Shown here: piece after piece, positions 3,171 through 28,513 of the stretch
Layout of the letters: every line of letters starts with the position of its first letter
How positions within the stretch are numbered: the first letter of the stretch is position 1
IMG/VR virus record: IMGVR_UViG_3300043357_000059
Location: 1-29,383 of that record
DNA: 29,383 bases
DNA from: a virus
Direction: 5' to 3' (one strand)
Notes under the pieces: generated by a model
Databases searched by the model: none
The model's input: the letters and a program-made list of their open reading frames with translations, nothing else
What the model was told of the DNA's origin: nothing
Translations under genes and position numbers: made by a program

Positions 3171-3419
3171 TTAGGACGCCCGCGCTAGATCATCCTTGGG
3201 CTTGGCAGCGGCCTTCCGCTGGACCATCGGCGACGCGCGCATGAGCTGGTCGAGGGTGACGATCAGCCCCTTGCGCTTGGCGAGCTGCAGAACGGCGGGC
3301 CAGCGTTCCGGCGGGATGCCATTCCCCTGCCAGCGCCACACTGTCGTCGGGTCGAGGCCCAGCTTGCCAGCGACGTGACGGAAGCCCCCCAGGTGGTCGA
3401 TGATCTTGTCGTGGCGCAT
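3171..3419 (-). CDS. Cro-like helix-turn-helix regulator
   Basis: An 82-residue protein. Residues 1-48 (KIIDHLGGFRHVAGKLGLDP, TTVWRWQGNGIPPERWPAVL) form a helix-turn-helix of the small Cro/carph-isopro type, in which the W-R-W segment lies in the recognition helix. It is the first gene of the minus early operon, facing the repressor, the classic position of Cro. It would bind operators in the switch and tune or shut down repressor expression. The only promoter I see has its -10 box at 3430-3435, so transcription would begin about four bases before the ATG: the message appears nearly leaderless. No Shine-Dalgarno sequence is seen. Whether it binds the same TTGCA-N5-TGCAA sites as the repressor is an inference. 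Confidence 0.8.
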   Translation of the reverse strand: MRHDKIIDHLGGFRHVAGKLGLDPTTVWRWQGNGIPPERWPAVLQLAKRKGLIVTLDQLMRASPMVQRKAAAKPKDDLARAS

Positions 3420-3429
3420 GATGCGGCGG

Positions 3430-3459
3430 ATTAGATTGCAGGACTTTCAATCGAGTCAA
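3430..3459 (-). promoter_or_regulatory. Early minus-strand sigma70-type promoter
   Basis: Reading on the minus strand, TTGACT (3459-3454) matches the -35 consensus at five of six positions, followed by an 18-base spacer and TCTAAT (3435-3430), five of six to the -10 consensus. The spacer contains operator 3436-3450. It drives the Cro-like gene and the early operon. Binding at the operator would block polymerase directly. Confidence 0.75.
3436..3450. promoter_or_regulatory. Operator site 1 (in the early promoter spacer)
   Basis: TTGCAGGACTTTCAA, one mismatch in the second arm from TTGCA-N5-TGCAA. It lies exactly between the -35 and -10 boxes of the minus early promoter. One of five related sites in the window; the least perfect, which could make it the weakest. 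Confidence 0.7.
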
Positions 3460-3494
3460 GGCACACCTCCCGCTCTGGGATGCCAAAAACCTTT

Positions 3495-3523
3495 TTGCTG
3501 AGAATGCAAGCATGGGATACGGT
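3495..3523 (+). promoter_or_regulatory. Weak candidate promoter for the repressor
   Basis: TTGCTG (3495-3500), 17 bases, then TACGGT (3518-3523). The -10 match is poor. Predicted start of transcription near 3530 would put operator 3531-3545 at the transcription start, consistent with autoregulation. Tentative. Confidence 0.35.
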
Positions 3524-3530
3524 GTCCATG

Positions 3531-3545
3531 TTGCAAGCACTGCAA
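3531..3545. promoter_or_regulatory. Operator site 2 (upstream of the repressor)
   Basis: TTGCAAGCACTGCAA, a perfect TTGCA-N5-TGCAA. It ends 13 bases before the repressor start codon. An additional TGCAAGCA half-like copy lies at 3504-3511. Confidence 0.7.
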
Positions 3546-3558
3546 TGAGGGACCGGAC

Positions 3559-4011
3559 TTGCCAGGGTTAGGGGCGAAACGAGAGGCCAATCGTGAGCTG
3601 CTGCGTCTTATCGGCGCGCGGATGCGTTGGATCAGAGAAGCCTATGAGGCTCGTGAACCGTTTGCCCATTCGCAAAAACAATGGGCGGAGGCGCTCGACA
3701 TCCAGGCGTCGCTGCTATCGCGGTTTGAAAACGGCAATCAGATGGCGCCGCCGGACATCCTTATCCGGCTGGTGTATTATTCGGGCGCTTCGATGGATTA
3801 CCTGTTTTTCGGTGTGCTTTCCGAGGATATGTTGCCTTGGCTGCGGAAGGTTTTGGCTGCGGCACACCCAACAGACGTTTCATCCAGCCGCGCGTTCCTA
3901 TCTGACCGGGACGTGAAGCTGCGATCAGGCCCAATACGTCAGGCACGAACTCGGCAGCGTCGGCTCGCGAAGCGTGGGCCCGAGAAGCCCCGGCCCTTAA
4001 AGCCTCGTTAA
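3559..4011 (+). CDS. Phage repressor, XRE-family helix-turn-helix
   Basis: A 150-residue protein. An XRE-type HTH covers about residues 12-70: SQKQWAEALDIQASLLSRFENGNQ is the HTH core, followed by PPDILIRLVYYSGASMDYLFFG, the standard fourth/fifth helices and D-Y-L-F-F-G end. The tail after residue 100 is basic and disordered-looking (RTRQRRLAKRG). There is no LexA-type (S24) peptidase domain, so RecA-stimulated self-cleavage is not expected. The start is a TTG at 3559 preceded by GAGGGA; the ATG at 3545 is out of frame, and the next in-frame ATG (about residue 22) would cut helix one. Divergent placement from the Cro-like gene and adjacent operators make it the immunity repressor. Function is inferred from fold and position. 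Confidence 0.8.
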   Translation: MPGLGAKREANRELLRLIGARMRWIREAYEAREPFAHSQKQWAEALDIQASLLSRFENGNQMAPPDILIRLVYYSGASMDYLFFGVLSEDMLPWLRKVLAAAHPTDVSSSRAFLSDRDVKLRSGPIRQARTRQRRLAKRGPEKPRPLKPR

Positions 4012-4039
4012 CTCTCCCCTTCATCGTCATCGTTCGTTT

Positions 4040-4062
4040 CGCCTTTCACGAAGGTGAAAGCG
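4040..4062 (+). terminator. Terminator-like hairpin after the repressor
   Basis: CGC-(C)-TTTCAC, loop GAAG, GTGAAA-GCG: nine paired bases with one bulged C, followed by TTT. It lies 29 bases after the repressor stop and would separate repressor transcription from the early plus-strand operon. The short T-run makes it a weak candidate. Confidence 0.5.
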
Positions 4063-4186
4063 TTTAGTCATGGCATCGTGTCGGCACGCGAATAAGGATT
4101 GTAGCCTGCCACGCCAGAATTGCACCAGCGCGAAATTGACGACGATTTATCGGTGCGGCTCATTCCCTGTTCACGCGATACCCCTA

Positions 4187-4201
4187 TTGCAAGTCTTGCA
4201 A
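4187..4201. promoter_or_regulatory. Operator site 3 (head of the plus-strand early operon)
   Basis: TTGCAAGTCTTGCAA, a perfect TTGCA-N5-TGCAA, 49 bases before the first gene of the operon. Together with the following bases it aligns well with operator 1 plus its -10 box read on the minus strand (TTGAAAGTCCTGCAATCTAAT, 21 bases, compared position by position: four differences). The aligned -10 (TCTTGT, 4202-4207) is weak and I see no good -35. Confidence 0.7.
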
Positions 4202-4250
4202 TCTTGTGCTTGCGTCGGACGCTTCCAACCCGCGAGAGATGGAAGCACCT

Positions 4251-4790
4251 ATGTCAGATACGCCCCAGACCCCCTCCGCATTCCAGATCGAACGGGCGAT
4301 GTCAGCGTGGCATCAGATACGCACGGCGCTTGGCAGCGACCCCGACCTTCTGACCGAGGACGCGATCCGCGCGGCGTTTGATGAAGCACACGCGACCCAC
4401 CCGGACGATCTGCTGCCTCGGCTGATCGATGCGATTTGGTGGACCGGGCGCCAGATCGATGATGCAGAGCAATTGTGGCGTCTGATGATCGCGCGGCGGG
4501 ACCGCTACCGGGACCGCGACGTTATGCTGCGACTGCTGCTGCAAGACCTGATGACAGCCTTCGGCGCGAAGTCAAAGCGCGGGCGTTATGCCAGCGCTAG
4601 CCTTGCGTCATCCACGCGCCAGTCTGTCGTGATCACCGACGCCGAGCTGTTACCCGACGAGTTCGTAAAGATCACCCGCGAGCCGCGTCGCACGGCAATC
4701 AGCGACGCTATCAACAACGATGGTCTGGTGATCCCCGGCGCGGTGTTGAGCAACCCCGGCGCCCCTGTGCTGACGATCAGGACACTCTGA
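4251..4790 (+). CDS. Siphovirus Gp157-like protein
   Basis: A 179-residue protein. The C-terminal third is the signature of the Gp157 family: VVITDAELLPDEFVKITREP, then TAISDAINNDGLVIPGAVLS, then a PVLTIRTL end. The N-terminal 110 residues are helical and more divergent than the usual coiled coil. Gp157 proteins sit beside single-strand annealing proteins in many phages and are thought to act with phage DNA recombination or resistance; their biochemistry is not settled. Here it directly precedes Bet, with one base between the stop and the Bet start. The start at 4251 has GGAAG upstream; an ATG four codons earlier (4239) is also possible. First gene of the plus early operon, behind operator 3. 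Confidence 0.75.
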   Translation: MSDTPQTPSAFQIERAMSAWHQIRTALGSDPDLLTEDAIRAAFDEAHATHPDDLLPRLIDAIWWTGRQIDDAEQLWRLMIARRDRYRDRDVMLRLLLQDLMTAFGAKSKRGRYASASLASSTRQSVVITDAELLPDEFVKITREPRRTAISDAINNDGLVIPGAVLSNPGAPVLTIRTL

Positions 4791-4791
4791 G

Positions 4792-5982
4792 ATGGCGCAA
4801 GCTGCGACTGCCCTAACCATCGCGCCGCGCCATCTGAAGCCACCGAGCTTTGCTGGGAGCGAGAACGCGTGGCGTGCGTTGTGCGAGGTCTATCCGTCCG
4901 CCGAAACGCCCGAGGTCGTTATGGCCGTGGTCGAATACTGCGCGGTGCGCAAGCTCGACCCATACAAGCGGCCGGTCCACGTCGTGCCGATGTATAACGC
5001 GCGGTTGCGCCGTAAAGTGCAGGTCGTGATGCAAGGCATCAACGAGGTGGAGATTACCGCAGCGCGCACCGGGCAGTGGGCAGGGATGGACCTGCCGGTA
5101 TGGGGGCCGATGGTGCGGCGCACGTTTCGCGGCGAGCTTGAAGAAAACGACGGCTCCAAGCGCGCGGTCGACACTGAGCTTGAATTTCCAGCGTGGTGCG
5201 CGGTCACGGTCTACCGGCTTGTCGGCGGTGCGCCTCGTGCTTTCACCGAGCAGTTATTCTGGGAGGAAAGCTATGGCCGCGCCGGGTTCCGCAGCGAGGT
5301 TCCTAATCAGCGCTGGCAAACCGCGCCCCGGCAGATGCTTCACAAGTGCACCAAGGCGGCGGTGATCCGTGCCGCGTTCCCCGAGGAGGGTTTCGGCTAT
5401 ACCGCCGAGGAGATGGAGGATCACGACGTTGATGCCGGCGGGATCACCATTGACGGCGTGATCGACCAGGGCGTGGAGAAGCCGAGCGACAAGGCGACGA
5501 TCGGGCACCAGCGGACGACAACCACCAAAGACAGCTCGCCGGACCCGCCGCTCGACCCGCTGGAGGAGGCGAATGGAACGCTCTGGCTGGCCAACCTGAA
5601 GCGGCTTCTACGCGAAGCGGAGACCGTCACGCGGGTTGTCGAGTTGCGCGGTCATCGCCGGGTGAATAGTGCCCTGGACGGAAAGACCAAGGCGCCAGCG
5701 ATGATCCGCGAACAGATCATCGATGCATTCAAAGAGGCGCACGAACGGCTCGCGCCGACCGGGGACCCACGCGACCAGGATGACGACGGACCCGGCTGGG
5801 ACGATCCGGTGGCGGAGCTAATCGCCGCGGTTGAGGCAATGGACGCCGAAGCGCTGTCGACGCTGCCCAGCAACGCGGCGTGGAAGGTGAAGACCCGCGA
5901 CCTGTTCCCGCCTGACCACGACCGGATCAATGAGGCGATCGAGCTGCGCAAGGCGACACTGAAGGGAAGCACGAGCCAATGA
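4792..5982 (+). CDS. bet: Bet family single-strand annealing recombinase
   Basis: A 396-residue protein. Residues 25-210 match phage recombination protein Bet (lambda Redbeta/RecT superfamily): EYCAVRKLDPYKRPVHVVPM at about 48-67, VMQGINEVEITAARTGQWAG, and the diagnostic RQMLHKCTKAAVIRAAFPEE, GFGYTAEEMED end of the core (180-210). It anneals single-stranded phage DNA during recombination-dependent replication. Lambda Beta is about 260 residues; the extra 170 here form a linker rich in D, P and K plus two short helical segments (about 255-315 and 335-390) that look alike and resemble C-terminal appendices of alphaproteobacterial RecT-like proteins. No lambda Exo/YqaJ exonuclease adjoins it; the two nucleases across the switch might supply the partner activity. 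Overlaps the next gene by ATGA. Confidence 0.9.
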   Translation: MAQAATALTIAPRHLKPPSFAGSENAWRALCEVYPSAETPEVVMAVVEYCAVRKLDPYKRPVHVVPMYNARLRRKVQVVMQGINEVEITAARTGQWAGMDLPVWGPMVRRTFRGELEENDGSKRAVDTELEFPAWCAVTVYRLVGGAPRAFTEQLFWEESYGRAGFRSEVPNQRWQTAPRQMLHKCTKAAVIRAAFPEEGFGYTAEEMEDHDVDAGGITIDGVIDQGVEKPSDKATIGHQRTTTTKDSSPDPPLDPLEEANGTLWLANLKRLLREAETVTRVVELRGHRRVNSALDGKTKAPAMIREQIIDAFKEAHERLAPTGDPRDQDDDGPGWDDPVAELIAAVEAMDAEALSTLPSNAAWKVKTRDLFPPDHDRINEAIELRKATLKGSTSQ

Positions 5983-6203
5983 GCACCAAGCACAAGCCGG
6001 ACCACGAGATGGAAATCATGCGGCGCGGCCTGCGCGATCTGGCGAGCCTATCACTCGGCGGCCGGCGACGCGTCCTGGCCTATTGGGGCGCGCGGATCGA
6101 GGCCATGCCGGCCGATGATGACGATACGCGCAATCCGCAACAGCTTGACATCGAGGACGTGCCACAAATGCCGCCGCTGCATGTGGCGGGCGCGGCGGCG
6201 TGA
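5979..6203 (+). CDS. Small hypothetical phage protein
   Basis: A 74-residue protein starting MSTKHKPDHEMEIMRRGLRD, with a predicted helix (LRDLASLSLGGRRRVLAYWG) and an acidic, proline-containing tail. No family recognised. The start overlaps the Bet stop as ATGA and its stop overlaps the next ATG, so it is co-translated in the early operon. High coding-style GC3 and tight coupling support it as real. Confidence 0.65.
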   Translation: MSTKHKPDHEMEIMRRGLRDLASLSLGGRRRVLAYWGARIEAMPADDDDTRNPQQLDIEDVPQMPPLHVAGAAA

Positions 6204-6421
6204 TGCAGGCCGAGGCGCGCGAGGCCCCGCCGGTCGAGGCGTTGCTATCGGCGGATGAGGTCGGCGCGGCACTCAGCGTGCATCGCACCACGGTGTTCCG
6301 CATGGTCCGCACGGACCCAGACTTTCCCCGACCGTTAAAGCTATCACGTAACACACCGCGCTGGTTTGCTACCGAAATAAACGCGTGGCTCGCGGCGCGT
6401 GCGGCGGAGAGGGGGCGGTAA
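6203..6421 (+). CDS. AlpA-like DNA-binding regulator
   Basis: A 72-residue protein. LLSADEVGAALSVHRTTVFR (residues 14-33) is the HTH of AlpA/MerR-like excisionase-type regulators, followed by DFPRPLKLSRNTPRWFATEINAWLAAR, the standard beta-wing and final helix of the AlpA family. AlpA proteins act as transcription activators of int/xis genes or as excisionases in P4-like elements. Here it is upstream of a P4-type integrase by about 3 kb and could serve as the excisionase or an operon activator; which one is an inference. The ATG at 6203 overlaps the previous stop as TGATG; a GTG one codon earlier is possible. Confidence 0.85.
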   Translation: MQAEAREAPPVEALLSADEVGAALSVHRTTVFRMVRTDPDFPRPLKLSRNTPRWFATEINAWLAARAAERGR

Positions 6422-6624
6422 TGTCCGATCTGCTGCCGATCGAGCTGCGGGATATGCGCGAGGAATGCCAGCGCGAGCTGGACATGCGCAAGCGCGTCTA
6501 CAGCGACATGGTGGCGCACCGGCAGATGAACCGGCGCCTTGCAGATCGGCGCATCGACATCATGGCGGCGGTGGTCGCGTTGCTGGACCGGCTGATCAGT
6601 GAGCAGGAGGTGAACACGCAATGA
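6421..6624 (+). CDS. Small helical hypothetical protein
   Basis: A 67-residue protein (MSDLLPIELRDMREECQREL...) predicted almost wholly helical, with a heptad-like pattern and many charged residues. No family recognised. Start overlaps the AlpA stop as TAATG and the stop overlaps the next gene as ATGA. Part of the coupled cluster after bet. Confidence 0.65.
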   Translation: MSDLLPIELRDMREECQRELDMRKRVYSDMVAHRQMNRRLADRRIDIMAAVVALLDRLISEQEVNTQ

Positions 6625-6839
6625 CCAAGCAAGTAGATCGCTGGATCGAGGGCAAGCGGAGCGATGGACTTGTGATCGCCGAGGGCGTCGACGGGTTCGT
6701 GATCCTACCCAAGAGCGACGGCCTCGCCCTCGATCGCTGCCCATGTTGCGACAAGCCTTTCCGCAATATGCGCGCGGCGCAGCTTGTCGCCGATGCGGTG
6801 TATGCGATGACGCGGGACCACGACCCGCAGGCGACATGA
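6621..6839 (+). CDS. Small protein with CPCC motif
   Basis: A 72-residue protein. The first half is likely a beta sheet (DGLVIAEGVDGFVILPKSDG). The centre carries LDRCPCCDKPF, three cysteines in a C-x-C-C arrangement that could bind a metal together with other residues, followed by a helix (MRAAQLVADAVYAM). Resembles small hypotheticals of alphaproteobacterial phages. Function unknown. Overlaps both neighbours by ATGA. Confidence 0.65.
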   Translation: MTKQVDRWIEGKRSDGLVIAEGVDGFVILPKSDGLALDRCPCCDKPFRNMRAAQLVADAVYAMTRDHDPQAT

Positions 6840-6952
6840 CGAACCGACAGCGCAAGCTGCGGCGTGTCTGGCGCGCGGCGCGGGCCGATCTGTACGTGGC
6901 CGTGGTCGGTGCGGCGTTCCTCTATTTGACCGCGATCCTGTTGTTGCACTGA
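6836..6952 (+). CDS. 38-residue single-span membrane peptide
   Basis: The peptide begins with a basic stretch (MTNRQRKLRRVWRAARADLY) and continues into one hydrophobic segment (VAVVGAAFLYLTAILLL) that is long enough to cross the inner membrane, N-terminus inside by the positive-inside rule. No family recognised. Its ATG overlaps the preceding stop as ATGA and its stop overlaps the next start as TGATG. Small phage membrane peptides may act in exclusion or lysis control, but nothing here decides it. Confidence 0.5.
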   Translation: MTNRQRKLRRVWRAARADLYVAVVGAAFLYLTAILLLH

Positions 6953-7365
6953 TGCAGACGGAGCCGGTCAACGCGGTGATCGAGCGGCGCGCGCTGGCGA
7001 AAGCTGCGGGTCTGGCATCGCGGTTGTCGGATGACGTGCGGCTATTGGTCGCGCAGACCTCGATCCTGTCGCTGACAATCGCGCGCCAAGGCGTGGCGGT
7101 GATGGAGGAACTCGACCTGCTACGGTTCCACCTCCGCGAGGCGACGCTACGGGCCGCGATAGGGGAGCCGGGCGCGTTGATCGAGACCAGACCGCTACCG
7201 CCCCAGGACAGCCCCCAGGCCCCGGCGAAGCGGGCATCCAAGGCAAGGGCGAACGGCGGGCACGCGAGGGCGGCAGCGTTGTCGCCCAAGCGGCGGCGTG
7301 CGATCGCCAAGGCGGCCGCAGCGGCGCGGTGGGGGAAGCGATCAAAGGAAAGGGAATTACGCTGA
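6952..7365 (+). CDS. Hypothetical protein with basic GGHARAAALS tail
   Basis: A 137-residue protein. The N-terminal 75 residues are helical. The tail after a proline-rich linker contains ANGGHARAAALSPKRRRAIA and KAAAAARWGK, a short motif that recurs at the end of many small bacterial and phage proteins (GG-x-ARA-x-x-LS-x-x-RR-x-x-IA-x-x-AAxxRW) and is probably nucleic-acid binding. Function unknown. Coupled to both neighbours by one-base TGATG overlaps. Confidence 0.65.
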   Translation: MQTEPVNAVIERRALAKAAGLASRLSDDVRLLVAQTSILSLTIARQGVAVMEELDLLRFHLREATLRAAIGEPGALIETRPLPPQDSPQAPAKRASKARANGGHARAAALSPKRRRAIAKAAAAARWGKRSKERELR

Positions 7366-7454
7366 TGCCGCGCTGGTCAGAATGGATCAGGCACCGCGAT
7401 TACTGCGCACACCACCCGACGCCAGAGGTGCGCGAGCGAAAGGGCAGACCATGA
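7365..7454 (+). CDS. 29-residue ORF
   Basis: The peptide MPRWSEWIRHRDYCAHHPTP (first 20 residues) fills the gap between two coupled genes, starting in a TGATG and ending in an ATGA overlap. Histidine- and tryptophan-rich; no family recognised. Supported only by the exact couplings. Confidence 0.4.
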   Translation: MPRWSEWIRHRDYCAHHPTPEVRERKGRP

Positions 7455-7657
7455 GCGAGCGGGCGGAATTTAGCGTGTGGGTGTTCCTGCCAGACGATTG
7501 GCATTTTCCGCTGGCGCAATTCATCGATGCAAAGCGCGCGGTGGAGGTAGCGGCGTTGGCGTCACGACGTGACGATGCGGTGCGCGTCATCATTACCGAT
7601 GGCGGCGACCACACCTGCTTTGAATGGATACGCGGCAAGGGCGTGACTTTCGGGTAG
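7451..7657 (+). CDS. Small hypothetical protein
   Basis: A 68-residue protein beginning MSERAEFSVWVFLPDDWHFP, with an alternating beta pattern followed by DAKRAVEVAALASR helix and VRVIITDGGDHTCFEW. It looks like a compact alpha/beta domain; similar short proteins occur in alphaproteobacterial phages, without known function. Starts in an ATGA overlap with the 29-residue ORF. Confidence 0.6.
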   Translation: MSERAEFSVWVFLPDDWHFPLAQFIDAKRAVEVAALASRRDDAVRVIITDGGDHTCFEWIRGKGVTFG

Positions 7658-7812
7658 CGCTGGAGTCCGAGCAAGCCGAGGCGGCGTTGGCTGGCTTGCG
7701 CGACGCGGTGCGCGAGCATCCCGAGTTATTAACACCTCGGATCGAGATGTTCGGCGTGGCGTTATCGGCGGCGATCGATCAGGTGACCGGCGCCGGTCAG
7801 ACGCGGCACTGA
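7624..7812 (+). CDS. Small helical hypothetical protein
   Basis: 62 residues, mostly helical and acidic (ALESEQAEAALAGLRDAVRE). It overlaps the previous gene by 34 bases in another frame, longer than elsewhere, so the true start may lie further in. It ends the run of coupled genes, just before a GC-rich hairpin. No family recognised. Confidence 0.45.
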   Translation: MDTRQGRDFRVALESEQAEAALAGLRDAVREHPELLTPRIEMFGVALSAAIDQVTGAGQTRH

Positions 7813-7869
7813 TGACGGAGCAAATGAGTTCGCGGACCTTCGACGGCGGACCGGGTGAAGGCGAGCGAA

Positions 7870-7910
7870 GGGGAGGGTGCCCGGCCGGTCCGCTTCGCCG
7901 GCCCCTCCCC
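7870..7910 (+). terminator. GC-rich hairpin at the end of the early gene run
   Basis: GGGGAGG (7870-7876), a six-base bulge, GGCCGG (7883-7888), a nine-base loop, then CCGGCC (7898-7903) and CCTCCCC (7904-7910) with no interruption. Thirteen GC-rich pairs. There is no T-run, so it may act as a transcription pause or RNA-end stabiliser rather than an intrinsic terminator. Operator 4 follows within seven bases. Confidence 0.45.
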
Positions 7911-7916
7911 ACCCCG

Positions 7917-7931
7917 TTGCACAGACTGCAA
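7917..7931. promoter_or_regulatory. Operator site 4
   Basis: TTGCACAGACTGCAA, perfect TTGCA-N5-TGCAA, 42 bases before the gene at 7974. The first TTGCAC could overlap a weak -35 with GATATG 17 bases on. With its next four bases it matches operator 5 in 18 of 19 positions. Confidence 0.65.
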
Positions 7932-7973
7932 TGGGGCATGATATGTGCAGCGGGCACCGAACGGAGTCCGACC

Positions 7974-8192
7974 ATGAGTGACCAAGCGACCGACCTCCAA
8001 TTGATCCTTCGCGGTCAGGAACAGATGATCCAGGAGCACGCGACCTTCCGTGACGACATGCGCGTGATGTCCGCTATGCTCATGCGGATGGACAACACCC
8101 TGGCTGCCCTACTGGTCGAGGTCCGCGCCATGCACGCGCGGCACGATCGGCTGGCGCAGCGGGTGGAGAGGATCGAGGCCAAGATCACATGA
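7974..8192 (+). CDS. Small coiled-coil protein
   Basis: 72 residues. After a short acidic start (MSDQATDLQLILRGQEQMIQ) almost all of it is one amphipathic helix with hydrophobic residues spaced three and four apart (MRVMSAMLMRMDNTLAALLV; RHDRLAQRVERIEAKI), a coiled coil likely to oligomerise. No family recognised. An in-frame extension to 7812 would run through the hairpin and operator 4, so I choose the start at 7974. The next gene overlaps as ATGA. Confidence 0.6.
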   Translation: MSDQATDLQLILRGQEQMIQEHATFRDDMRVMSAMLMRMDNTLAALLVEVRAMHARHDRLAQRVERIEAKIT

Positions 8193-8362
8193 ACGACCGC
8201 GAGATGGCGTTGCATGAGGCTGGCAACGCAGCCGCCGACTGTGTGCAGCGCCTGGAGCGCGTCAAAGGGTGGTTGGACGATCTGACGCCAGAGGAGGCGC
8301 AGCTCTGGTTCAAGGCGCGGCAGGCGTGCGACTTCCTCTATGTCGCGGTCAACAAGCAATGA
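8189..8362 (+). CDS. Small helical hypothetical protein
   Basis: 57 residues, beginning MNDREMALHEAGNAAADCVQ and ending in a helix with AQLWFKARQACDFLYVAVNK. The pattern resembles two antiparallel helices. No family recognised. It overlaps both neighbours by ATGA. Confidence 0.6.
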   Translation: MNDREMALHEAGNAAADCVQRLERVKGWLDDLTPEEAQLWFKARQACDFLYVAVNKQ

Positions 8363-8550
8363 CAGACGACACTACCAGTTATTCGATCGCCATCACCCGC
8401 CACGCGGACGGTGGTCGCGCCACCATCGAGTGGGACGGTTACGGCCTGCTGCACGAGCTGCTGACCGACATCATGGCCGAGGCGACGAAATACGGGTGGC
8501 TGATCGAGTGTCCAGACCTGCCACTAACCCCCGAAAAGCGCGAAAGCTGA
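8359..8550 (+). CDS. Small hypothetical protein
   Basis: 63 residues. A beta-hairpin-like N-terminal half (SYSIAITRHADGGRATIEWD) is followed by a helix (LLHELLTDIMAEATKYGW). Last gene of its group; operator 5 begins at the base after its stop codon. No family recognised. Confidence 0.6.
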   Translation: MTDDTTSYSIAITRHADGGRATIEWDGYGLLHELLTDIMAEATKYGWLIECPDLPLTPEKRES

Positions 8551-8565
8551 TTGCACCGACTGCAA
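8551..8565. promoter_or_regulatory. Operator site 5 (border of the attP/int region)
   Basis: TTGCACCGACTGCAA, perfect TTGCA-N5-TGCAA, directly abutting the stop codon of the preceding gene and opening the 397-base non-coding gap before the integrase cluster. Confidence 0.65.
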
Positions 8566-8610
8566 TGGGAACCCGGCCGCTATGCGTGCCGAACGGGCTA
8601 GCCGTGCGTA

Positions 8611-8633
8611 AGTGGTGACTCAAGTGGTGACTC
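8611..8633. repeat. Tandem 12-mer repeat element, copy 1
   Basis: AGTGGTGACTCA immediately followed by AGTGGTGACTC. Identical to the copy at 8819-8841. Candidate integrase arm site. Confidence 0.75.
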
Positions 8634-8818
8634 GCGCGGCGGCTGCTTACAAGAAACCGAACAAAATCAGCAAGTTATAGCGTCGGGCGGCGTTGTCCTT
8701 GCTAATTCCGCCGCTCCTGATCTGCATTGCATGGCGTGGCAAAATCTCTTGTTTTCCTGGGGTTTAGCGATCATACGGATTGCGGTTCTTGCAATCGAAT
8801 GCACCGGGTGGCAGCGTG

Positions 8819-8841
8819 AGTGGTGACTCAAGTGGTGACTC
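8819..8841. repeat. Tandem 12-mer repeat element, copy 2
   Basis: Exact copy of 8611-8633, same orientation, 208 bases downstream, and the match continues one more base (A) here. Two such elements in direct orientation flank a 185-base interval. Confidence 0.75.
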
Positions 8842-9429: not shown

Positions 9430-9692
9430 GCATGCTCCAGAACCTCCGACTGGTGGCGTATTCCCACAAGGTCCGCCGGCTCCTCAAAGAACGCCACGGT
9501 ATCTGGCTGACCGGCTTACCGGTCGGCGGACCGGGCTTTGATACGTTCATCGACATCTGCACGTATCGCTTTGTCGACAAGGGGTCAGCGGAGCGGACGG
9601 CGGAGCTTTATGCCACCGCCTGCCGCGTCCTCGACCGACACCCGGAGTCTTTCACCGAGTATGCCGACGCTATGCACGGGGCGCGGTCATGA
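9426..9692 (+). CDS. Small hypothetical protein
   Basis: 88 residues starting MSMLQNLRLVAYSHKVRRLL, mixed helix and loop, with a C-terminal helical part (AERTAELYATACRVLDRH). No family recognised. Overlaps the preceding gene and the integrase gene by ATGA, so its expression is tied to integrase. Confidence 0.65.
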   Translation: MSMLQNLRLVAYSHKVRRLLKERHGIWLTGLPVGGPGFDTFIDICTYRFVDKGSAERTAELYATACRVLDRHPESFTEYADAMHGARS

Positions 9693-10969
9693 GCGCACTC
9701 ACCGATCTGAAGGTCCGTCGCCTTGAGCCGAAGGCCGAGGCGTATCGGGTCACCGATGGGGCCGGGCTGTTCCTGGTCGTCCTCCCCGGTGGCAGCAAGT
9801 CCTGGCGATGCGTCTACTCGCTGGACGGCAAGCGCCACCTGATCACCCTTGGCACCTACCCCGAGATGTCCCTGGCAGCCGCGCGAGCGGCGCGCCAGGG
9901 CGTGCGGGGGCAGGTCCGCGAGGGCGCCAGCCCAACCCACGACCGGGCGGCGATGCGGCGTGAACGGCTCGACCGCAACGAGATGACCTTTGAGGTCATG
10001 GCGAGACGGTGGCACGAATACATGGCCACCACCGAGTGGTCTAACACCTACGGCACGCGCGTGTTGCAGCGGTTCGTTACTCACGCTTTCCCTGCGTTCG
10101 GTCGCCGCCCGATCGATCAGGTAACGCGGGCGAATGTGATCGACCTGTTGCAACGCGTCGTGATGCGGAACGGCAAGTGGCAGGCCAATCACCTGCGGCA
10201 GCATCTGGTGTCCGCGTTCGATCATTGGCTGGACAAGGAACTCATCACACGCAACCCAGCCGATCGGCTGGCGAAGAAGTTCCGCCTCCCGACGAAGCGG
10301 ATGCAGCCGGCGGTGCTCACCATTGAGGATGCGCGGCGCGTCCTGTCGCTGGTCGACAACAGCGGCGGCGCGGTGGCGTTGCGATTGCTGCACCGGTTCC
10401 TCGCGTTGACGGCGGTCCGGCCGTCCGAGGCGCGCGAGCTACGCTGGCGCGAACTTGAGGGGCGGCGCGATGTCTGGACGATCCCGGCCGAGCGCATGAA
10501 GGGCCGGCGCGGGCGGCAGGAGTCGCACGACGTCATGCTGTCACCCCAGGCGCGGGACGTGATCGCGGTCGCCGCGGAACTCTCCCCCGGCCACGGTCCC
10601 GACGACTTCGTGTTCCCGTCGTGGTGGGCGAAGAAAAAGACCGCGCCGATGCATCGTAGCTCGCTGGCGGAACTGCTTGATCGCGTGCTTGCTGACAGCG
10701 GCATCAAGCATGTGCCTCACGGCTGGCGGGCGGCGTTCTCCACCGTGATGAACGAACGGCACCCCGGCAATCATCGGGTGATCGATCGCGTCCTGGCACA
10801 CGCGAGCAAGGGGGCGGTCGAGGGGCGATACAACCGCGCGCAGCACGAGACCAAGGCGCGGGCGCTGGTGTGGGAGTGGGCCAACGATCTGTTGGCCGGC
10901 GCACCGTCCGCCTGGGAGCTGGCCGGTTTGGCGACGCCGATGCCCGTCGTCACGCTGGTGGCGGCATGA
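9689..10969 (+). CDS. int: Tyrosine site-specific integrase, P4 type
   Basis: A 426-residue recombinase. Residues 1-80 are the DUF4102 arm-binding domain of P4-type integrases (DLKVRRLEPKAEAYRVTDGAGLFL; ITLGTYPEMSLAAARAA). A SAM-like core-binding domain spans about 98-190. The catalytic domain (205-390) has R244 (TAVRPSEARELRW), H344 and R347 (HGWRAAFST), H371 (LAHASKGAVEGRY) and the nucleophile Y381 (GRYNRAQH). All expected catalytic residues are present, so it should integrate and excise the phage at attP/attB. The start overlaps the upstream gene as ATGA and the stop overlaps the downstream gene as ATGA. P4-type enzymes often use tRNA genes as attB; that cannot be tested here. Confidence 0.95.
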   Translation: MSALTDLKVRRLEPKAEAYRVTDGAGLFLVVLPGGSKSWRCVYSLDGKRHLITLGTYPEMSLAAARAARQGVRGQVREGASPTHDRAAMRRERLDRNEMTFEVMARRWHEYMATTEWSNTYGTRVLQRFVTHAFPAFGRRPIDQVTRANVIDLLQRVVMRNGKWQANHLRQHLVSAFDHWLDKELITRNPADRLAKKFRLPTKRMQPAVLTIEDARRVLSLVDNSGGAVALRLLHRFLALTAVRPSEARELRWRELEGRRDVWTIPAERMKGRRGRQESHDVMLSPQARDVIAVAAELSPGHGPDDFVFPSWWAKKKTAPMHRSSLAELLDRVLADSGIKHVPHGWRAAFSTVMNERHPGNHRVIDRVLAHASKGAVEGRYNRAQHETKARALVWEWANDLLAGAPSAWELAGLATPMPVVTLVAA

Positions 10970-12935: not shown

Positions 12936-13204
12936 CTGAGCTGATCGCGAGCGAGCGGACCCCAGGCCAGCGGATCACGGAACTGCATTGCTGGATCGCG
13001 ACCTATGCGGACGGCACCGAGGGGATTATTGCCGGTGGTCTCCCAGGGCTTGGGATGACACCGCTTGTCACCTCGCGCCGGCACGCTGCGGAGCAATTAG
13101 AGGTGGTCGCACACAATGCAATGCGACTATCGCGGGCCACGCCGCACCGTGTCACCAGCGTCCGGCTAGTCACGTTCACCACGACCGAAGGCACCCGGCA
13201 GTGA
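12932..13204 (+). CDS. Small hypothetical protein, last of the plus-strand block
   Basis: 90 residues: MTELIASERTPGQRITELHC, then beta strands and a helix (RRHAAEQLEVVAHNAMRLSR), ending in beta strand (VTSVRLVTFTTTEG). No family recognised. It converges with the tail fibre gene, with 18 bases between the stops and no clear terminator in that gap. Confidence 0.65.
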   Translation: MTELIASERTPGQRITELHCWIATYADGTEGIIAGGLPGLGMTPLVTSRRHAAEQLEVVAHNAMRLSRATPHRVTSVRLVTFTTTEGTRQ

Positions 13205-27893: not shown

Positions 27894-28513
27894 TCCACCA
27901 GTTCCTTTGTGGTTGCGGGCCAAGGCCCATCGGTCGCGGGCGGATAGGGCGGATCGCCGGTCGGGACCAGCACCACGGCCGGCGGCACATCGCCCGGCGC
28001 CACAGGCGCCTTGAAGATGTCCACCTCGATCGCATCGAGCGGAATGGATTGCGGTTGCACACCATCGGCGTCGCTGATCTGCCAATCGAGGGCGAACTCC
28101 CATTGGTAGAACAGTCGCGCGCGGTCGAGGTCGAGATAGCGTGCGCCTTGGAACGCGATGCCGCGCGTCATGCGCGGACAACCTTCCGCGTCATTGATGA
28201 TCAGGTTGAGCACTGAGCGGAATATCTGCGTCTCGATCAGGTCAAACTGCATGACCGGCGCCTGCCCGCGCCGATCGGTCTGCGCGTCAAGCTCGACCGC
28301 GACCCCGATGCTCTTATGAACGATCTGGATCAACCCGTTCATGACGGGATTAGCCTCCGCGTCCTGGCCGAGCGGCAGCACATAGGCGGCGGGGAGCGCG
28401 AGCGACGTGTTGTAATTCTTCAGCCCGGCATAGAATTCCGCAGCACCCGCGATGCGGCCACCGAACAGCGGCGCGTTGGCGCGCAACTGGGCAATGAACG
28501 TTTCAACGATCAT
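27890..28513 (-). CDS. Tail terminator-like protein (Mu gp37-type position)
   Basis: 207 residues. MIVETFIAQLRANAPLFGGR, IAGAAEFYAGLKNYNTSLAL, PAAYVLPLG is typical of phage tail terminator/Gp37-like proteins, and its place two genes upstream of the sheath matches. It probably caps the tail tube for joining to the head. The C-terminal 50 residues are proline-rich and flexible. Overlaps both neighbours as ATGA. Confidence 0.7.
   Translation of the reverse strand: MIVETFIAQLRANAPLFGGRIAGAAEFYAGLKNYNTSLALPAAYVLPLGQDAEANPVMNGLIQIVHKSIGVAVELDAQTDRRGQAPVMQFDLIETQIFRSVLNLIINDAEGCPRMTRGIAFQGARYLDLDRARLFYQWEFALDWQISDADGVQPQSIPLDAIEVDIFKAPVAPGDVPPAVVLVPTGDPPYPPATDGPWPATTKELVE

Follow-up and report, generated by a model that had tools for sequence, protein, structure and literature searches.

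The phage recorded here, whose virus record of 29,383 nt was analysed in full (the window), is temperate and carries about seven copies of one mirror-image site, placed at early promoters and beside the integration site, and it is not alone in this, being a member of a group that shares one regulatory layout. From the sites themselves, their conservation, their concerted change between operator classes and the homologies of the two neighbouring regulatory proteins, it is very probable that these palindromes serve the phage's own immunity regulators as operators, with the repressor occluding early promoters. The binder is most likely a P22 c2-like repressor (3559-4011), and the sites would probably be common to a Cro-like protein (3171-3419).

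The palindromes of the window

A preliminary description of this DNA listed five TTGCA-N5-TGCAA sites, and we found all of them where it placed them: perfect at 3531-3545, 4187-4201, 7917-7931 and 8551-8565 (operators 3 to 6) and with one arm mismatch at 3436-3450 (operator 1, TTGCAGGACTTTCAA). Its statement that no sixth site exists holds for perfect sites but fails at one mismatch, as two sites in the early region, 3495-3509 (operator 2, TTGCTGAGAATGCAA) and 8780-8794 (operator 7, TTGCGGTTCTTGCAA), had been overlooked. Two more one-mismatch matches, at 13107 and 20297, both fall within genes and are probably due to chance. The roughly seven sites all lie inside 3436-8794 by the scan of the window (the record may be incomplete), and only 3495 and 3531 are close together, the other sites being single.

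Compared with simulated sequence of the same composition (first-order Markov model), the motif is strongly enriched, with 4 perfect occurrences against 0.03 expected (maximum 1 in 1000 simulations) and 9 matches with at most one mismatch against 0.82 expected. TTGCA-N5 is also the best-scoring palindromic word in the window, at log10 E = -5.1 after correction for 1024 five-base arms x 13 spacings (1 to 13). That the sites are chance palindromes, or pieces of hairpins or terminators, might be argued from the two of nine matches that fall inside genes, but no T-runs follow the sites, and the enrichment over expectation, together with the conservation of position and sequence in relatives described below, leaves this explanation next to no probability; for the set as a whole, chance is refuted by enrichment and conservation.

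All seven sites lie between genes, as had been claimed for the original five, if the gene at 7974 begins at its ATG, 57 nt downstream of operator 5, but not otherwise, since a longer ORF starting at 7812 would include site 7917. Operator 3 is immediately upstream of the repressor start. Operator 6 directly follows the last early gene's stop codon, to the left of the presumed attP, on whose right side, upstream of the int operon, lies operator 7. Just upstream of operator 5 there is a GC-rich inverted repeat (7870-7912) without a T-run, which perhaps separates transcription units. The sites had further been divided into two oriented subclasses: the likeness of 7917 and 8551 at 18 of 19 positions is correct, but the orientation is weak, because the arms form a perfect palindrome, a core without direction, and the shared flanks rest on two pairs of sites.

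Conservation and concerted change in related phages

Searches with the repressor and Cro against viral contigs gave no matches, nor did an annotated phage collection when queried with the repressor or the window's first 12 kb, and a RecT search of genome contigs returned distant relatives only. Relatives were found through the RecT-type annealing protein (4792-5982, plus strand) and the gene at 2735, and are environmental phage contigs that share the early region of the window; all those compared are metagenomic, several are close to each other, and their gene calls are mechanical.

Six relatives with the operator version of the window (class A) have perfect sites at matching positions, four each in L010, L011, L012, L014 and L022 and two in L019, and across these relatives the arms are 100% identical while the 25-nt flanks are 30-73% identical. 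Spacing is conserved as well: the cro site lies 21-29 nt ahead of the cro ATG (17 nt in the window), and the recT-operon site starts 59-64 nt before the ATG of the head gene in six class A relatives and 64 nt before it in the window, where operator 4 precedes the likely ATG (4251) of a Gp157-like gene (4206-4790, plus strand). In contigs that reach the int gene, a pair of sites 204-205 nt apart lies to its left, corresponding to 8551 and 8780 in the window, which are 229 nt apart. For operator 3, a counterpart at the equivalent position is present in class B relatives; the 7974 gene has no relative in the loci fetched. A weight matrix derived from 20 relative sites, none of them from the window, gave 8551, 4187, 7917, 3531 and 3436 as its top five matches in the window, with 8780 ranking seventh and 3495 eleventh. 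The idea of a distributed operator set, put forward in the preliminary description, is therefore strongly supported by conservation in relatives.

The arms change in concert. Class B phages L009, L016, L018, L020 and L023 have TTGCC-N5-GGCAA at three positions, those of cro, the repressor and the recT operon, and at that of the int operon too in contigs that cover it, a change of one base per arm relative to class A; the same word is carried by L111 and L112. Class B phages have a different repressor subtype, and within each class the arms are invariant and the flanks variable. In L017, which encodes a Cro homologue together with a dissimilar HTH repressor, GACAA-N5-TTGTC occurs four times in the switch region. 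A further four phages (L008, L013, L015 and L109, the only ones of this kind) have Cro, and in them neither a c2-like repressor nor a dispersed palindrome of the TTGCA-N5 type was found. Because the arms change with repressor type at the same places, the motif follows the phage repressor and not the host, nor Cro alone.

This bears on whether the sites are instead targets of a host transcription factor that the phage has borrowed, which might be considered as host regulators often bind palindromes of similar size. Three arm sequences at the same places in close relatives, tracking the phage repressor type, nevertheless make such an origin very improbable, and we rejected it. Independent origins of classes A and B were likewise rejected, as a repressor tree built without helix 3 and without the class A insertion places the difference at a single change; the match between protein and operator is thus one event, not a replicated correlation.

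Other palindromes were noticed elsewhere. In L113, whose c2-like repressor is more distant, a further class of roughly GTGCC-N5-GGCAC occurs at 5679 (repressor) and 6341 (next gene); in the more distant phage L152, class A sites at 4653 and 5383 flank a related repressor gene; and L140 has six GTGCC-N5-GGCAC palindromes in a tight, iteron-like array with mostly 33 nt spacing (7609-7820).

Candidate regulators, promoters and the presumed attP

The protein encoded at 3559-4011 (plus strand, 150 aa) gives a profile match to P22 c2 (1adr, E 3.8e-14), and its structural model superimposes on operator-bound c2 (3jxb) with an rmsd of 1.0 A over 69 columns. A Foldseek search of pdb with the model yielded no E below 0.001, so the match to P22 c2 rests mainly on the profile. 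Only the HTH was found: Pfam matches include no self-cleaving C-terminal peptidase domain, and no second DNA-binding domain is recognisable in the repressor, whose model is of low confidence at residues 111-136. In P22 c2, Val33 reads the operator directly. At c2 positions 33 and 36, in helix 3, class A repressors have S/A/F and S/G and class B repressors Q/H and N, and we regard these two positions as candidate specificity residues. This environmental phage group thus offers two main operator versions, one base pair per arm apart at matching places, and, given the candidate residues, a question of specificity that can be tested by swapping few residues and bases.

The Cro-like protein (3171-3419, minus strand) is encoded by the first gene of the leftward operon and gives a profile match to P22 Cro (1rzs, E 1.2e-6), as well as YdaS_toxin and P22_Cro matches slightly below the Pfam cut-off. 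Its residue before a conserved W is R in class A versus H/K in class B. Since Cro also differs between the two classes, its share cannot be separated from that of the repressor, and both proteins may bind. In L111 (7217-7642) and L112 (8077-8502), the Cro-like protein consists of two fused Cro/YdaS HTH domains. The leftward operon of the window also encodes a ParB-like N-terminus fused to an MT-A70 adenine methyltransferase (962-2089).

Promoters were read by comparison with relatives and not from a consensus scan, which returned a single match, at 3752 inside the repressor gene, and none of the proposed promoters. The predicted cro promoter (3430-3459, minus strand) has a -35 element TTGACT (3459-3454), an 18-nt spacer containing operator 1 and a -10 element TCTAAT (3435-3430), and class B cro promoters read TTGACC-N17-TAnnnT, again with the operator within the spacer. 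At the recT operon the left arm of the operator forms the -35 element, and in 12 relatives a TAnnnT -10 element starts 23-24 nt from the beginning of the site, a position at which the window itself has only a poor -10. Promoters at 3495, where operator 2 overlaps what may be a weak -35 element for the repressor, and at 7917 and 8780 are plausible but weak. As the operator overlaps the -35 element or spacer of the readable promoters, occlusion of polymerase is the simplest mechanism. A dimer of the c2-like repressor would sit on each 15-bp palindrome, each of its monomers contacting one TTGCA arm, and in the lysogen would block RNA polymerase at the leftward cro/replication promoter, its own promoter and those of the recT operon, the 7974 unit and the int operon, and during lytic growth the Cro-like protein would probably occupy the same sites, as in lambda and P22.

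Operators 6 and 7 flank a region that we take to be attP because tandem repeats and an int gene are present. The left repeats (8606-8633, plus strand, two copies of GTGGTGACTCAA with a 12-nt period) are presumed integrase arm sites, the right repeats (8814-8841, plus strand) are 96% identical to them and 208 nt away, and a tyrosine integrase is encoded at 9689-10969 (plus strand). No integrated copy of the phage was found, and a tRNA search for placing attB was also negative. Relatives have CGCATG repeats with an 11-12-nt period in the same layout, and their operators keep fixed distances to them. From operator start to the repeats downstream, the distance on the left is exactly 40 nt in five class A phages and in L020; on the right it is exactly 43 nt in these six and also in L016 and L018. 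The corresponding distances in the window are about 61 nt (left) and about 40 nt (right), 8551 matching the left att operator of five class A relatives and 8780 the right att operator of relatives. In L014, CRISPR-like repeats (GGTTCATCCCCGCATGCGCGGGGAAC) lie at 10850-10960 of the phage contig, just left of the att operator.

The left att operator of class B phages keeps the class A letters: it is intact in L020, has one mismatch in L018 (TTCCAATCCATGCAA) and is reduced to its right half in L016. In these three related phages, a small sample, it looks to be decaying, which would fit a remnant from an exchange of immunity type. The presence of operators next to the presumed attP hints that immunity and integration are linked, and a bolder reading, which we consider rather unlikely, is that the immunity regulator is wired into site-specific recombination: repressor or Cro bound at the att operators would directly promote or block assembly of the integration or excision complex, and a swap would change the promoter operators while the left att operator decays. 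Operator 6 may help control integration, or it may keep early transcription out of attP and int.

The same arrangement raises the question whether the Cro-like protein, rather than the c2-like repressor, is the main binder and regulates recombination in the manner of phage 186 Apl, which binds both switch and att (PMC7498355). The Cro-like gene heads the early operon with an operator on its own promoter, and operators flank the presumed attP at set distances. We think this fairly unlikely, as Apl recognises direct repeats with a spacing of 10-11 bp and the sites of the window are single palindromes, the motif is absent from phages that keep Cro where no c2-like repressor was found, and an AlpA/Xis-like gene is present at 6200-6421.

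Stoperators and other dispersed operator systems

The dispersed sites had been said to recall the stoperators of mycobacteriophage L5, at which the repressor would halt elongating polymerase within transcription units. L5 sites are asymmetric, direction-dependent 13-mers, numbering >20 per genome, and are bound by a monomeric repressor with an HTH and a second DNA-binding (Stoperator) domain (PMC9283540). Of these features, the asymmetry, the number of sites and the second domain were not seen in the window: the recognition sequence is a perfect inverted repeat in four window sites and in relatives, there are about seven sites, mostly on promoters, and in the repressor only an HTH was found by Pfam and in its model. 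The likeness to stoperators was hence not borne out, and we judge stoperator action quite improbable here. Some observations do point towards it. As no promoter is visible at 8551, which comes after a stop codon, it is the only site of the window that could act as a stoperator (roadblock) or as part of an att complex. Outside the window, the 43 kb of G012 (the L112 record) contain nine exact class B sites and one with mixed arms, of which the one at 28054 sits in a 31-nt gap between two co-directional genes, so that control of elongation is possible elsewhere in the group. The G012 sites span 5845-36186, some of them in the later half, and this phage is a better stoperator candidate than the window.

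Occlusion of early promoters by a c2-like repressor has its closest counterpart in the P22 c2/Cro switch, with which the window shares divergent repressor and Cro genes, homologous HTH domains and palindromic operators that overlap early promoters (those of cro and the recT operon here, as predicted by comparison). Operators of P22 and the lambdoid phages form clustered triplets (OR1-3, OL1-3), whereas those of the window are single and dispersed, and the int operon and presumed attP have them too; the window repressor, at 150 aa, moreover differs from P22 c2 in that no peptidase domain was found. Streptomyces phage phiC31 likewise has conserved inverted repeats that serve as dispersed operators near early promoters. 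In phage P1, one repressor, C1, acts at 22 operators scattered across the genome (PMC8546580), as proposed here, but its operator is an asymmetric 17-mer as opposed to a palindromic 15-mer with about seven sites in the window. The sites of 186 Apl and P2 Cox resemble those of the window in lying at switch and attP alike, but they are direct repeats 10-11 bp apart with cooperative binding that spreads along DNA (PMC7498355); direct-repeat sites shared by switch and attP were not found in the window, where the repeats at 8606 and 8814 differ in sequence from the operators. With mycobacteriophage L5, finally, the window shares dispersed, mostly intergenic repressor sites and a motif that drifts along with the repressor (PMC6550527).
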